Source of the DNA: a virus
Virus record (IMG/VR): IMGVR_UViG_3300032241_001337
Span: 1-25,099 of that record
Length of the DNA: 25,099 nt
Reading direction: 5' to 3' (one strand)
Shown here: positions 348-4,943 of the stretch, piece after piece
How positions within the stretch are numbered: position 1 is the first letter of the stretch
How the letters are laid out: each line of letters begins with the position of its first letter
Notes under the pieces: model-generated
What the model saw: the letters and a program-made list of their open reading frames with translations, nothing else
What the model was told of the DNA's origin: nothing
Database searches by the model: none
Translations under genes and position numbers: made by a program

Positions 348-374
348 AAGACCCCGCCTAGTGCGGGGTTTTTT
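348..374 (+). terminator. Rho-independent terminator of gp32
   Basis: The arms ACCCCGC (351-357) and GCGGGGT (363-369) pair perfectly around a 5-base loop. The stem can extend by A-T and G-T pairs to 348/372, and a run of T follows (369-374). The orientation with a T-tract serves + strand transcription from gp32. The reverse direction has no T-tract after the stem, so it is a weaker terminator for the minus operon, although the hairpin sits right at the stop codon of that operon's last gene (373-375). Confidence 0.9.
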
Positions 375-1962
375 ACGTGTATCTCAGATTAGACTTGACA
401 ATCTTCATCCAGGTAGGATCGTCCGTTCTGGTTTGAACTGAGCTGACAACATTGATATTTGGTTCACTGGAACCACTGGAACCAACCACATTGGTTTGTT
501 TTATGAAAGTTGGTTCTGTGTTTGTCGGTCCATTTTTCAAGTCTTTATTCTCAACGGATAACTTGTTGAGAACATCAGCGGTTTTATTCAATTGTTCACC
601 AACATTTTCATCAATTTCTTTTGCCAATGATTTGGCTTCGTCTTTGATGGAACTCAGATTATCACCAGTACTTTCTCTTAATTTTTTAAGGGTTTCATTA
701 TTCTCAAATTTTCCCATCAATTCTTTGGATATATCAGAAGCAGATTGACCATAATCACCTTGCATCTTAGAGATAACACCAACAATCCCACGATTCACCG
801 ATTCACCAGTTTTAATATCTCTAATACCAGGTAAAGAAACACCATTTAATGGATTTCTAAAGGAATCGTTATAATCCAGTTCATATCCTAGAGCACCAAG
901 TCGTTTACTCAAATCCTTTTGATGTTCGGATTCAGAAGCTTTGCCGGCAGCATATTCAGCATCATGTTGTTTCACCACTTCATCATATTTTCTATCCTTT
1001 AATGCACGGTTATAATCTCCTGTGGTTGCTGCATAATCTTCAATTTGTTGTTTTTTAACAGCCAATTCATGTGATTTATTATAATGTTGTAAGGCTTCTT
1101 TACCAATAAGACCTTCTGTAATAGTATCAGAAACCGTTTCAGTGGTTTTTTCGGTAGCAATAACTCCAGCGGCCACGGCAGCAATTTTTAATCCCTTCAC
1201 TAAAAATCCACCACCAGGAATAAGTTCCAACAAACCAGCCAACAAATCAACTACAGCCGTACCAAGTTTATTCACGGAGAAAGAAACCAATCTTGTTAAG
1301 GTTGATGTTGCTGCACCTAAAATCTTTTCAAACAGGAACGATGTAACCACAGACATTGCTTCTTTGACTATACCATAAACCAATCCAGCAACACCTTTTG
1401 TTACTTTATAGATTGATGAGACTATAAATTTGGATACCGACCAAACAGTTTTAAGTATTCCACTGAAAAGACTCTTAACACCTTGAAGCATATTACCTAG
1501 TATTTTTGTGATAAAAGAAGAAGTGTCTTTCTTTTCTTTCTTTTTCTCAACAGGTTTGGATCCATCAGTCAACTTATGAATAACATCAAACAACTCTTTG
1601 TCTCTGCTTGACTGTTTTTCTCGTCTTTCATTTTCAAAATCTTTTTGTAGTTCATATCTTTTAACATCTTCTTCATGTTCAGATTTCATGAGGTTATAAA
1701 TTTTCGCAAAGATGTTAGCCAGACCTTCACCAGACTTCAATTTTTGATTCTGTCCTTCTGAAACCTTGGTGAAAAAAGCATCACTTATGTTCTTTTTTCT
1801 TTCTGCACGAACAGTAGTTTTGGATTTACTTTTCTTCATGCCAGAAGTTTGTTCATTATTGGCATCAGAAACCTTACCAGTTATGGCTTTACCAAAAGAA
1901 CTATCTAAGAAAGTGTTTCTTAGACTTGTTAAGTTTTCAATTAGTGTATCTGATAACTGCAT
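373..1962 (-). CDS. Hydrophobic virion protein, candidate tail tape-measure protein
   Basis: This 529-residue protein is the last gene of the minus operon. Its ATG lies one base after the stop of the upstream gene. The N-terminus is Lys-rich. Residues about 73-132 form a charged helical module that recurs in the upstream protein (KLKSGEGLANIFAKI here, KLKKGDSAANIAAKI there). Residues about 150-272 are a long run of hydrophobic, Gly/Ala/Val-rich helices that could span membranes. The rest is charged helix-forming sequence ending in a Gly/Ser/Asn linker and DDPTWMKIVKSNLRYT. A long helical protein with a central hydrophobic patch, encoded after the gp26/gp51 assembly genes, fits the position of the T4 tape measure gp29 (about 590 aa) and the hydrophobic segments tape measures use at the host membrane. 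No gp29 sequence identity was recognised, so the function is inferred from composition and context. It could also be a hub accessory or injected protein. Confidence 0.55.
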   Translation of the reverse strand: MQLSDTLIENLTSLRNTFLDSSFGKAITGKVSDANNEQTSGMKKSKSKTTVRAERKKNISDAFFTKVSEGQNQKLKSGEGLANIFAKIYNLMKSEHEEDVKRYELQKDFENERREKQSSRDKELFDVIHKLTDGSKPVEKKKEKKDTSSFITKILGNMLQGVKSLFSGILKTVWSVSKFIVSSIYKVTKGVAGLVYGIVKEAMSVVTSFLFEKILGAATSTLTRLVSFSVNKLGTAVVDLLAGLLELIPGGGFLVKGLKIAAVAAGVIATEKTTETVSDTITEGLIGKEALQHYNKSHELAVKKQQIEDYAATTGDYNRALKDRKYDEVVKQHDAEYAAGKASESEHQKDLSKRLGALGYELDYNDSFRNPLNGVSLPGIRDIKTGESVNRGIVGVISKMQGDYGQSASDISKELMGKFENNETLKKLRESTGDNLSSIKDEAKSLAKEIDENVGEQLNKTADVLNKLSVENKDLKNGPTNTEPTFIKQTNVVGSSGSSEPNINVVSSVQTRTDDPTWMKIVKSNLRYT

Positions 1963-1963
1963 T

Positions 1964-3379
1964 TTAGTTGTACCTGTTATAGTTTAGAAAATCATCCAGT
2001 ATTGGTGGCATAAGGTTTGGTTTATTTTCATATAGTTGTTTTGCACCATCTACGGCTGATTTTACGATTGTTTCTTTTTCCAATACAATTGTTTTTGTTT
2101 TTGAAGCAATATCAGCCAATTCCAATTTTTTGGATGATTCTACCAAATCTTGACCAATTGAAGAAGATATTTCTTCCTGTCGTATTAAAGCTTTGTTTGT
2201 TCCAACAGCATCATAGTAACTTTGTCCTGGTTTCAAATCCCTCTTACCAAATTTATCCTCGACATGCATACTTTCTGGAACAGGAACAGAAGCAAAAGTC
2301 TTAGCAACATTAGTTTGATATTGATTTTGTGTGATTTCACCACGAGAAAGTTTTGAAGAACCTGCCTCTTGCAATAGGTCTTCTGCAAATTTATCTTGAA
2401 CTTCTGATGTGAATTTTGTTGTCTTTATGTCAAGGCCTTCTTTTGCACTTAATCGTTTTAATGTACCTTCAATGATCTGATAACCACCTGCAGCAGTGGA
2501 AGGAAACTTACCACTCGCTTTCATTTTCTCTTGCAGTTGAATGACCTGTTCAATGGTCATGTCAGTCAATTTAATGCCTTTAAATTCATCAGGTAAATTC
2601 TTATCTCCACCAATAGCGGAGACCAATCTGTTATAATCGTTACCAGATTCTCTTTTTCTAATCAAGTCTCTTAAAGATTTTTGATCCAATAATGTATTGT
2701 TAGTAAAAGATTCTTCTGGATTTTGCAATAGACCTTTGATTCTTTTGTTTAAATCAATCATTTCATCTTGCATTTTACCAAAGGAAGCATGTGCATCTTC
2801 AGCAAATAGAAGTAGACCCAAACCACCAGCAATCATCAATCCATATTTCAATAGATTGCCACCACCCTTTGGTTCTTCTTCCTTTTTTTGTTCTGGAATT
2901 CTCTTATGAAGTTTCTTTAGATTTTCTTTGTACTTCAGGTCTTCTTGTTCTTCTTTGGCCTTATGGAAATTTCTGGCTAATTCCATCATTTTACTTTTAT
3001 CATCATGTGATTTCTTCATGAATAGTAAAATCTTAGCAGCAATGTTTGCGGCTGAATCGCCCTTTTTCAATTTACCACCACGAACAGAAACGGTGTTGAA
3101 CACCGATTCTTTTGGTACCATATCTTTTTGTTCTTTGGTTGCCTTCTGACTTAACTTCTTGACAACCTTTTTTGATTCTTCCGTCTTTGATTTGCGTGTA
3201 GTCTTGATGCCAAAGACATTCTTTAGAACGATAGGATCCATTAAGTCTTTATATTCTAAAGCCTTTTGTTTGAATTCCTCTGAAACTTCTTTACGAAAGT
3301 GTCTTTTGATTTTTTCTTCAACAGACAACTTTTGTTTTTCAAGCTTTTCAATCTTTTCTTTAGCGCTTAGTTCTTTCAT
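1964..3379 (-). CDS. Virion protein with transmembrane segment and lambda-R-like (GH104-type) muralytic domain
   Basis: This is a 471-residue protein. Residues 1-165 are highly charged helices, and about 103-162 form the module shared with the downstream protein. Residues 176-193 are a single hydrophobic segment (LKYGLMIAGGLGLLLF). Residues about 234-370 resemble the lambda endolysin R fold. An acidic residue in RESGNDYN (E244) sits where lambda R has its catalytic glutamate, STAAGGYQII (294-303) matches the lambda STGAGRYQLL signature, and SEVQDKFAEDLL plus the region before ASVPVP follow in the same order. Lambda R is a transglycosylase cleaving the MurNAc-GlcNAc bond. The rest (371-471) is helical. 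A tail-associated peptidoglycan-opening role, possibly within a tape measure, is inferred. The start overlaps the stop of the gp51-like frame (ATGA). One signature position is Gly (AAGGY) where lambda has Arg (GAGRY), so activity is not assured. Confidence 0.65.
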   Translation of the reverse strand: MKELSAKEKIEKLEKQKLSVEEKIKRHFRKEVSEEFKQKALEYKDLMDPIVLKNVFGIKTTRKSKTEESKKVVKKLSQKATKEQKDMVPKESVFNTVSVRGGKLKKGDSAANIAAKILLFMKKSHDDKSKMMELARNFHKAKEEQEDLKYKENLKKLHKRIPEQKKEEEPKGGGNLLKYGLMIAGGLGLLLFAEDAHASFGKMQDEMIDLNKRIKGLLQNPEESFTNNTLLDQKSLRDLIRKRESGNDYNRLVSAIGGDKNLPDEFKGIKLTDMTIEQVIQLQEKMKASGKFPSTAAGGYQIIEGTLKRLSAKEGLDIKTTKFTSEVQDKFAEDLLQEAGSSKLSRGEITQNQYQTNVAKTFASVPVPESMHVEDKFGKRDLKPGQSYYDAVGTNKALIRQEEISSSIGQDLVESSKKLELADIASKTKTIVLEKETIVKSAVDGAKQLYENKPNLMPPILDDFLNYNRYN

Positions 3380-3513
3380 CTACGTTCTGCATTTCTTTGT
3401 TTTAGTTTTTCATTTTCTTCTTCAATGTACCTAACCAGCATATTAACGTAAATTTCACGCTCCCAAGGCAACATACCTTCAAGTTCCGACAAACTATATT
3501 TGTGGTGCTGCAT
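3376..3513 (-). CDS. gp51: gp51-like baseplate hub assembly protein (small frame, probably expressed by -1 frameshift from gp26)
   Basis: Between gp26 and the muralytic gene the minus strand has an open frame whose only ATG (3511-3513) gives 45 residues: MQHHKYSLSELEGMLPWERE, then IYVNMLVRYIEEENEKLKQR and NAERR. The PWEREIYV core followed by an acidic/Gln-rich helix resembles the gp51 hub-assembly factors of T4-like phages, and the position directly after gp26 matches T4 gene order (26, 51). No Shine-Dalgarno precedes this ATG. The in-frame residues upstream (LKNYYTTNFAL) look protein-like, and the frame stays open back into the end of gp26. This suggests the real product starts earlier, most simply as a frameshift extension of gp26. 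The TGA overlaps the next start (ATGA), which suggests translational coupling. The frame is real with good probability; the exact start is uncertain. Confidence 0.6.
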   Translation of the reverse strand: MQHHKYSLSELEGMLPWEREIYVNMLVRYIEEENEKLKQRNAERR

Positions 3514-3563
3514 CAATGCAAAGTTTGTCGTATAGTAATTTTTTAATGTATCATGACGAAAGA

Positions 3564-4286
3564 TTAACCGAAAAAATTTTCGAGGCCCTCCGCCTCAATC
3601 AAGTGTTTGAAACCACACTTGTCACAAACACATTCAATCTTCTTATTTAATTTAGGAAGATTGTTGAAGAAGTTTTCAATACGTGAGAATTGGTCAGTAT
3701 TTAAAGATTCAACAAAGTCAACCAACTCTTGTTTAGGAGTTTCTTTGGCATAGTAGAACTGTTCACCATCAAAGATGTAATCAATACTCTCAATAATCAT
3801 ATTGAAAGCCATGTCTGATGCATTTTCATAAGTGGAAGTTTTTTCCAGAATAGAAAACTGTGGATACTTCAACTTAATAACAATCTTATCGGTCAGGTTG
3901 ATTTCTTCTTTGTTCTCAGTTTCTTCAACCTTGATATCCAAAAGGTTGATACTGACATTCATAGAATTGTTACAGATTTTGTTATCAACTTCATTCTCAC
4001 AACGATATTTGTTCTCAACAACTTCACCGACAGACCGTGCTCTGAGTTGAATGAAATAGTATTCAACATCCAGTATAGGTAAAGCATCAACATCAACACC
4101 TTCAGTCAAGGTACAGTTGTGTAAAACTTGCTTGATGTTCTTTTCGATGGTGTCTTTGTCGTCCGATTCCATTGCCATCATTAAGTTTCTTTGTTCTTTC
4201 ACTAAGAAAGGACGGAAACGAATGAGTTTCTTAGACAAAGGTAAAGTCAATTCATAGATTGGCGCATCAATTTTTGGTAAAGCCAT
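3564..4286 (-). CDS. gp26: Baseplate hub assembly protein gp26 (T4_baseplate family)
   Basis: The 240-residue product matches the T4 gp26 family (Pfam T4_baseplate). It opens with the typical MALPKIDAPIYELTLPLS and RFRPFLVKEQRNLMMAMES, and LRARSVGEVV (81-90) and DYIFDGEQFYYA (169-180) are further family landmarks. Two Cys clusters, C96/C105 and C219/C221/C224 (CVCDKC), look like a zinc-binding site, as in many non-enteric homologues. In T4, gp26 takes part in assembling the central hub and is not abundant in the virion. The start is decided by the best Shine-Dalgarno in the window (AAGGAG, 4292-4297), five bases before ATG. The C-terminus, EGLENFFG, sits on the slippery heptamer that joins the gp51-like frame, so two products may be made, as with lambda gpG and gpGT. 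The gene follows the gp19-like gene by 18 bases. Confidence 0.85.
   Translation of the reverse strand: MALPKIDAPIYELTLPLSKKLIRFRPFLVKEQRNLMMAMESDDKDTIEKNIKQVLHNCTLTEGVDVDALPILDVEYYFIQLRARSVGEVVENKYRCENEVDNKICNNSMNVSINLLDIKVEETENKEEINLTDKIVIKLKYPQFSILEKTSTYENASDMAFNMIIESIDYIFDGEQFYYAKETPKQELVDFVESLNTDQFSRIENFFNNLPKLNKKIECVCDKCGFKHLIEAEGLENFFG
3573..3579 (-). promoter_or_regulatory. Putative -1 programmed ribosomal frameshift heptamer at the end of gp26
   Basis: Read on the minus strand, gp26 ends GAA AAT TTT TTC GGT TAA. The heptamer A AAT TTT fits the canonical X XXY YYZ pattern and lies over residues N237-F238. Slipping back one base after TTT gives TTT CGG TTA ATC and so on, in the frame of the gp51-like sequence, with no stop until TGA at 3376-3378. 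The predicted fusion is 303 residues (238 from gp26 plus 65). No strong downstream hairpin was found; the best candidate is a weak TCGT/ACGA pairing with a long AT-rich loop. Confidence 0.55.
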
Positions 4287-4290
4287 TATA

Positions 4291-4297
4291 TCTCCTT
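4291..4297 (-). promoter_or_regulatory. Strong ribosome binding site of gp26
   Basis: The minus strand reads AAGGAGA followed by TATA and ATG. It is the closest match to the anti-Shine-Dalgarno sequence in the window and has ideal spacing. Most other genes here start with weak sites or overlaps. High initiation on gp26 would suit a frameshifting arrangement in which the fusion is the minor product. Confidence 0.75.
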
Positions 4298-4304
4298 CAA
4301 ATCA

Positions 4305-4943
4305 TTAAAATAAGCTTTTCACGGTGTTAATTGCACTGTTAGTTAAATTAGTCAAACCACCATTAGAATTCAAAACATTTGAAATACCAGCCTGTAGTAG
4401 GCTGGAACCAAGTGCTTGGAATGAATTGTTTTGCCAATATCTGTATGCAAAAACAACGGTTAACTTGTGGTAACCATCATTAGACCAGTCTAGGTCTAGT
4501 TGATTGACAGCAATAGGAAAGGCATCAATCAAGTTGACAGAATAAACCAAATTATTCTCCAAGTCGTATTGATTGACTTGTAAAGTGGAAATGTAATCAT
4601 TACGGAAGTTAAAGTCGAATGTGATAGTTGGGTTAATGTATTCCATCCAAGCATCAAAGAAAATCTTTTCAGACATATCATCCGAAACAATAAAGGTCAT
4701 TTCAGACTCATTATAGTTGGACTGATATGCATGTTTTTCAATAGGGTTTGAACCAAACTTTTGGTCTGCGGTTGCAAATGTTCTACTTGGCAACTGTGCA
4801 TTTTCACATCTTAGTGATAAGTTACGGCTTGTTGACAAGTATTGAATCAATGGTATTGGTGCAGGAATAGTAACATCAAACCTATTTGGTCGTGCTACGT
4901 CTTTCTTGAACGAACTAACAAAATCGTTAATGTTTGATGGCAT
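4305..4943 (-). CDS. gp19: Tail tube protein, T4 gp19 family
   Basis: This 212-residue protein carries gp19-family landmarks. ARPNRFDVTIP (17-27) corresponds to T4 FARPNLFQVEI. LSLRCENAQLPSRTF is the first beta-strand pair. EMTFIVSDDMSEKIFFDAWM corresponds to the WTVTVMNDEAHDARQKFVDW region. NQLDLDWSNDGYHKLTVVFAYRYW matches T4 LQLDWDSNNEIQTFEVTLALDYW. Such proteins form hexameric rings of the tail tube. The C-terminal 40 residues are a Ser/Asn/Leu-rich extension absent from T4 gp19. Because gp48 and gp54 share this fold and the gene sits among hub-assembly genes, it might be a baseplate-proximal tube initiator rather than the main tube subunit. No sheath gene is in the window to settle this. 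The start is two bases after the preceding stop, with GAAGAA as a weak ribosome site. Confidence 0.78.
   Translation of the reverse strand: MPSNINDFVSSFKKDVARPNRFDVTIPAPIPLIQYLSTSRNLSLRCENAQLPSRTFATADQKFGSNPIEKHAYQSNYNESEMTFIVSDDMSEKIFFDAWMEYINPTITFDFNFRNDYISTLQVNQYDLENNLVYSVNLIDAFPIAVNQLDLDWSNDGYHKLTVVFAYRYWQNNSFQALGSSLLQAGISNVLNSNGGLTNLTNSAINTVKSLF

Follow-up and report, generated by a model that had tools for sequence, protein, structure and literature searches.

A near-fixed U UUU UUC heptamer and a selected −1 frame suggest that gp26 and gp51 form a frameshifted tail assembly chaperone gene in a T4-like phage

How the gp51-like domain of this phage is translated is the question raised by the locus. 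In the window, that is, the whole analysed stretch of 25,099 nucleotides of viral DNA, a gp26 gene on the minus strand ends just in front of an open −1 frame that encodes a gp51-like sequence. We consider it highly probable (about 0.93) that gp26 and the gp51 frame are one gene, decoded in two ways by a −1 slip on U UUU UUC to give a short and a long chaperone. The features concerned are listed in Table 1.

Table 1. Features of the gp26/gp51 locus in the window
Feature	Coordinates	Strand	Basis or remark
529-aa ORF with hydrophobic segments, possible second tape-measure-type gene	373..1962	−	Weak; by position
471-aa ORF, tape-measure-like position	1964..3379	−	ATG overlaps the −1 stop (ATGA), no clear Shine-Dalgarno (SD) sequence
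−1 frame gp51 domain, proposed C-terminal domain of the long chaperone	3376..3570	−	64 residues after Phe-Phe, then TGA at 3378–3376
gp26, 240 aa, proposed short tail assembly chaperone (TAC-N)	3564..4286	−	PF12322 T4_baseplate, E 2e-59; phrog_150 baseplate hub, E 3e-64
Slip heptamer T TTT TTC (U UUU UUC)	3570..3576	−	T TTT TTN in frame in 121/121 loci
SD-like GGAGGG, candidate frameshift stimulator	3586..3591	−	9 nt 5′ of the slip heptamer
SD sequence AAGGAG of gp26	4292..4297	−	Sequence, before the gp26 ATG
Tail tube-like protein (gp54/gp19 type), directly upstream of gp26	4305..4943	−	phrog_45 tail tube, E 3e-38

The order on the minus strand is the tube-like gene, gp26, the −1 gp51 frame, and the two long ORFs. 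The 3′ end of gp26 reads GAA AAT TTT TTC GGT TAA, with the stop at 3566–3564. The −1 frame continues for 65 codons without a stop, and its first ATG, at 3513, has no SD sequence. These elements and their coordinates are all as the first-pass annotation had described them, and the 303-residue fusion that it had predicted is likewise obtained, as gp26 through Phe-Phe (239 residues) followed by 64 residues. The product of the −1 frame (FRLIFRHD...NAERR) matches phrog_634, named baseplate hub assembly catalyst (gp51), with an E value of 5e-28; by this match and the PF12322/phrog_150 assignment of gp26, the two parts belong to the T4-like gp26/gp51 family. That a long −1 frame stays open beyond the end of a gene was not accepted as evidence by itself: such frames are not rare in this window, where several genes have one owing to an overlapping next gene in the same frame. 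The case rests on homology and the slip site, not on the length of the open frame.

Using the −1 domain alone as a tblastn query, we found matches in 530 phage records, mostly of cyanophages and marine phages, and in nearly all of the matches listed the alignment begins at query residue 1, the position of the slip. Loci were then drawn from viral contigs and named phages; 121 of them are non-redundant and have both parts, and the gp51 domain sits in the −1 frame in every one. The pair is located between a tail tube gene and a tape-measure gene, with the tube-like gene upstream and a tape-measure-family match at the downstream position in relatives, where the next long ORF either matches such families or carries that annotation. 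For the window, tape-measure identity is assigned from position and has weak support from profiles. The 471-aa ORF is similar to phrog_34252 (endolysin, E 6e-6) and phrog_6126 (virion structural protein, E 1e-7), which suggests that a cell-wall-degrading domain may lie within a tape-measure-type protein.

The codons at the end of gp26 should be noted, since they reveal which sequence is conserved. The first-pass annotation had asked whether a slippery heptamer is kept among relatives, and an in-frame T TTT TTN is present at all 121 loci, as TTTTTTC in 97, TTTTTTT in 19, and TTTTTTA in 5. It is separated from the gp26 stop by 0 to 8 codons, exactly one codon in 102/121. Elsewhere in gp26 of the same loci, nnT TTT TTN occurs in frame only 26 times in 27,926 codons, where codon shuffling expects 37, so its presence at the gene end is well beyond chance. 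Before Phe-Phe, the codon varies in meaning (Asn, Ser, Asp, Ala, or Phe) but ends in T at every locus. TTT is the only codon used for the first Phe of the slip site, although TTC accounts for 27% of Phe codons elsewhere. For the second Phe, TTC is used in 97/116 cases, against 350/1310 (27%) elsewhere (Fisher p 4e-34; the loci are related, and this and the other p-values given here therefore overstate the independence of the data). When the second position is Leu, the codon is TTA, which keeps U UUU UUA. These choices indicate that the nucleotide slip site itself is conserved, not only the amino acids.

Selection on the −1 frame is seen from the slip site onwards. Between the slip and the equivalent of the first ATG, a stretch of 19 codons, pN/pS for the −1, 0, and +1 frames is 0.30, 0.99, and 1.66, respectively; in the 24 codons that follow, it is 0.19, 1.06, and 4.01. 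Protein-level selection on the −1 frame thus acts already ahead of the first ATG and extends back to the slip site. Codon-level constraint in the segment preceding position 3513, on which the earlier proposal had been made to depend, is therefore present.

Three other explanations should be weighed against a slip on U UUU UUC. The slip site named by the first-pass annotation was A AAT TTT, which is indeed readable in frame in the window, and both of its codons can re-pair; it would yield the same peptide, ENFFRLIFR, as T TTT TTC. However, it is found in only 27/121 relatives, and the codon before TTT varies (AGT, AAT, GAT, TCT, GCT) with only its final T kept, so that A AAT TTT was rejected as the conserved slip site and is very unlikely to be the functional one. 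The heptamer that is conserved is T TTT TTC. The same fused protein would also arise by transcriptional slippage on the T/A run, which would produce a mixed mRNA population. RNA polymerase is generally known to slip on A/T runs, and six Ts do stand in a row here, but the run is no longer than six bases and its seventh base is C in 97/121 loci, indicating that a longer homopolymer is not favored; the SD-like element upstream also suits a ribosomal mechanism. Of the explanations considered, this one is given the smallest chance.

The remaining alternative is that gp51 is a separate small protein made without any frameshift, from an internal −1 start such as the ATG at 3513 or by reinitiation after the gp26 stop. 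GenBank records do annotate short gp51 ORFs from internal ATGs, and TAATG or TGATG is found at the gp26 stop in some relatives. Contrarily, conservation of the −1 frame is already evident at the slip site, ahead of any start, and a start with an SD-like 4-mer occurs within the first 25 −1 codons in only 2/120 loci (absent in 118/120), compared with approximately 78% of gp26 starts. No separate gp51 with its own ribosome site, which would have spoken against the earlier proposal, was thus found beyond these two loci. In the window, no ATG is present near the gp26 stop, and a separate start would leave the fixed T TTT TTN codon choice unexplained. A separately initiated gp51 was rejected for the window on the absence of an SD sequence and the constraint on the −1 frame, and its overall probability is put at only a few percent, a little below that of a slip on A AAT TTT. 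Where an ATG overlaps the gp26 stop (e.g., Mendera and EniLVp02), reinitiation could add to expression.

In the favored reading, slippage on U UUU UUC, most ribosomes would read gp26 to its stop to produce TAC-N. At UUU UUC, a minority would have both tRNA-Phe slip back by one base on U UUU UUC (3576–3570); having missed the gp26 stop, these ribosomes would add 64 residues to give the long form, TAC-NC, of 303 aa. If the analogy with lambda gpG/gpGT holds, the tape-measure protein would be coated by the short form, and tail tube subunits would be brought in by the long form.

The SD-like GGAGGG upstream of the heptamer probably stimulates the slip, judging from codon usage. The Glu codon of a conserved Glu-Gly pair approximately four codons before the slip site is GAG in 49/84 loci, compared with 569/2733 (21%) of the Glu codons elsewhere in gp26 (Fisher p 2e-13), and other Glu-Gly pairs use GAG in 20% (p 5e-7 against the slip-proximal pair). 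This choice of GAG places GGAGG/GAGGG 9 nt away from the heptamer, which is what would be expected if an SD-like element stimulated −1 slippage; dnaX invites comparison. A conserved stem-loop or pseudoknot downstream of the slip site is not supported, the mean z score being −0.90 downstream and −0.16 to −0.60 in controls, and the fold of the 80 nt downstream in the window itself is weak.

The start of the next gene should also be noted. In the window, the start of the 471-aa ORF overlaps the −1 stop at 3376–3379, and among the relatives a long ORF begins −14 to +25 nt from the −1 stop in 108/121 loci, compared with 19% of random positions. SD-like 4-mers are found at 36% of these downstream starts, between the values for gp26 starts (78%) and random positions (11%). 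Because the −1 stop overlaps or abuts the next ATG, ribosomes finishing the long chaperone could reinitiate there. The frameshift might then also set the output of the tape-measure protein, with long-chaperone ribosomes reinitiating at a fixed ratio and the SD-like element tuning the slip rate, an extension that we regard as rather doubtful, at perhaps one chance in four.

The AlphaFold2 model of gp26 is confident (pLDDT 87.5, pTM 0.81), and the viral models that it matches carry the names baseplate hub, baseplate hub assembly chaperone, and T4-type gp51. Among solved structures, a Foldseek search of the PDB placed the HK97 tail assembly chaperone (2ob9) among the highest-probability matches, but at a probability of only 0.21/0.16 (E 5–6) and with a TM score of 0.40–0.42 by target length; the other match with a probability near 0.2 is the uncharacterized 3fgx. 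The likeness of the gp26 model to 2ob9 is suggestive only. In sequence searches of solved structures, gp26 had no match, and the matches of the −1 domain did not rise above chance level. This domain is predicted to form three helices (pLDDT 80), and a fold search with it gave no significant match.

T4-type phages carry the same two parts in a different arrangement. In Moon and kv_tblp5, gp26 ends in ...FFKLI* or ...FFKVIQ* and is followed by no −1 domain; its heptamer is broken because Phe-Phe is written TTC TTT. In these phages, one undivided ORF on the opposite strand encodes gp51. Citrobacter phage Moon gp51 (250 aa) matches phrog_150 over residues 3–249 (E 6e-82); its N-terminal part matches the gp26 profile (E 3e-4), and residues 200–244 match the −1 domain profile (E 1.5e-7). 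Since Moon gp51 matches both parts, the fused form exists in nature as one gene. The proposal that gp26 and the fusion are a lambda G/GT-like pair upstream of tape-measure-like genes is therefore supported, the heptamer and the selection on the −1 frame being conserved and T4-type gp51 fusing the same parts. As a separate observation, GenBank gives the role of tape measure chaperone in Moon (locus L004, 554–2192) to a joined CDS, labelled GT-like, that spans gp27 and gp28; the homology found here points instead to gp26 and gp51 as the chaperones of Moon.

In Ackermannviridae and Vibrio phage K469, a gp51-like domain also follows gp26 in the −1 frame, without T TTT TTN. Their slip region is G/A/C-TTTTY (e.g., ATT TTC, GTT TTT, and CTT TTT), and in several of these loci an ATG overlaps the gp26 stop (TAATG). 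Loci lacking T TTT TTN are L176–L180 (phiMAM1, VAP7, Vibrio 1.255.O, ECML-4, and KWBSE43-6), L169, and L170. In many phage records, gp51 is given a too-late start, is called a hypothetical protein, or is omitted. In GU071105 (Syn1), KC465899 (HTVC008M), and KJ019035 (ACG-2014d), its start is too late or the gene is missing, since the frameshift was not considered in the public records. The frameshifted pair and the two separate genes offer a natural comparison for the ratio of chaperone isoforms in long-tailed phages.

Vladimirov, Gautam and Davidson are said to have found frameshifting conserved in several T4-like groups, with T4 using genes 26 and 51. The first-pass annotation knew of no such description for gp26/gp51; it is in fact already published for T4-like phages, as passages of two later papers indicate. 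One describes T4-like phages with separate genes for the short and the fused long chaperone (PMC10885494, citing Vladimirov, Gautam and Davidson, Virology 2022), and the other describes poly-T frameshift signals in T4-like TAC-N genes (PMC12846349, crediting the same work). The present finding is therefore well supported and not new in kind. What is added here is the exact heptamer, the upstream SD-like element, and the adjacency of the −1 stop to the start of the next gene. An earlier review had regarded the lambda-type frameshift as widely conserved "except T4" (PMC5009743, 2016). Sullivan (2010; PMC3037559) described cyanophage gp51 as lacking about 200 N-terminal residues; the proposed decoding explains why it looks like a truncated T4 gp51, the missing 200 residues being gp26, joined by the frameshift.

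As far as those passages describe it, the T4-like system of Vladimirov (2022) has the same genes, gp26 and gp51, and the same assignment of short and long chaperones as proposed here. By the same passages, the long form is the separate gene 51 in T4-type phages, whereas the window falls among the frameshifting members. Vandenendeviridae and Andersonviridae (phage Adele; PMC12846349) share with the window a conserved slip motif at the TAC-N end and an open −1 frame, but they are different phage families and have GTTTTT rather than U UUU UUC. Lambda gpG/gpGT (Levin 1993; Xu 2004) differs from the window in its heptamer and shows no sequence homology detectable in this analysis. In both systems, nevertheless, the gene between the tube gene and the tape measure has a −1 slip close to its 3′ end, and both have short and long isoforms; for the window, slip and isoforms are proposed from sequence.
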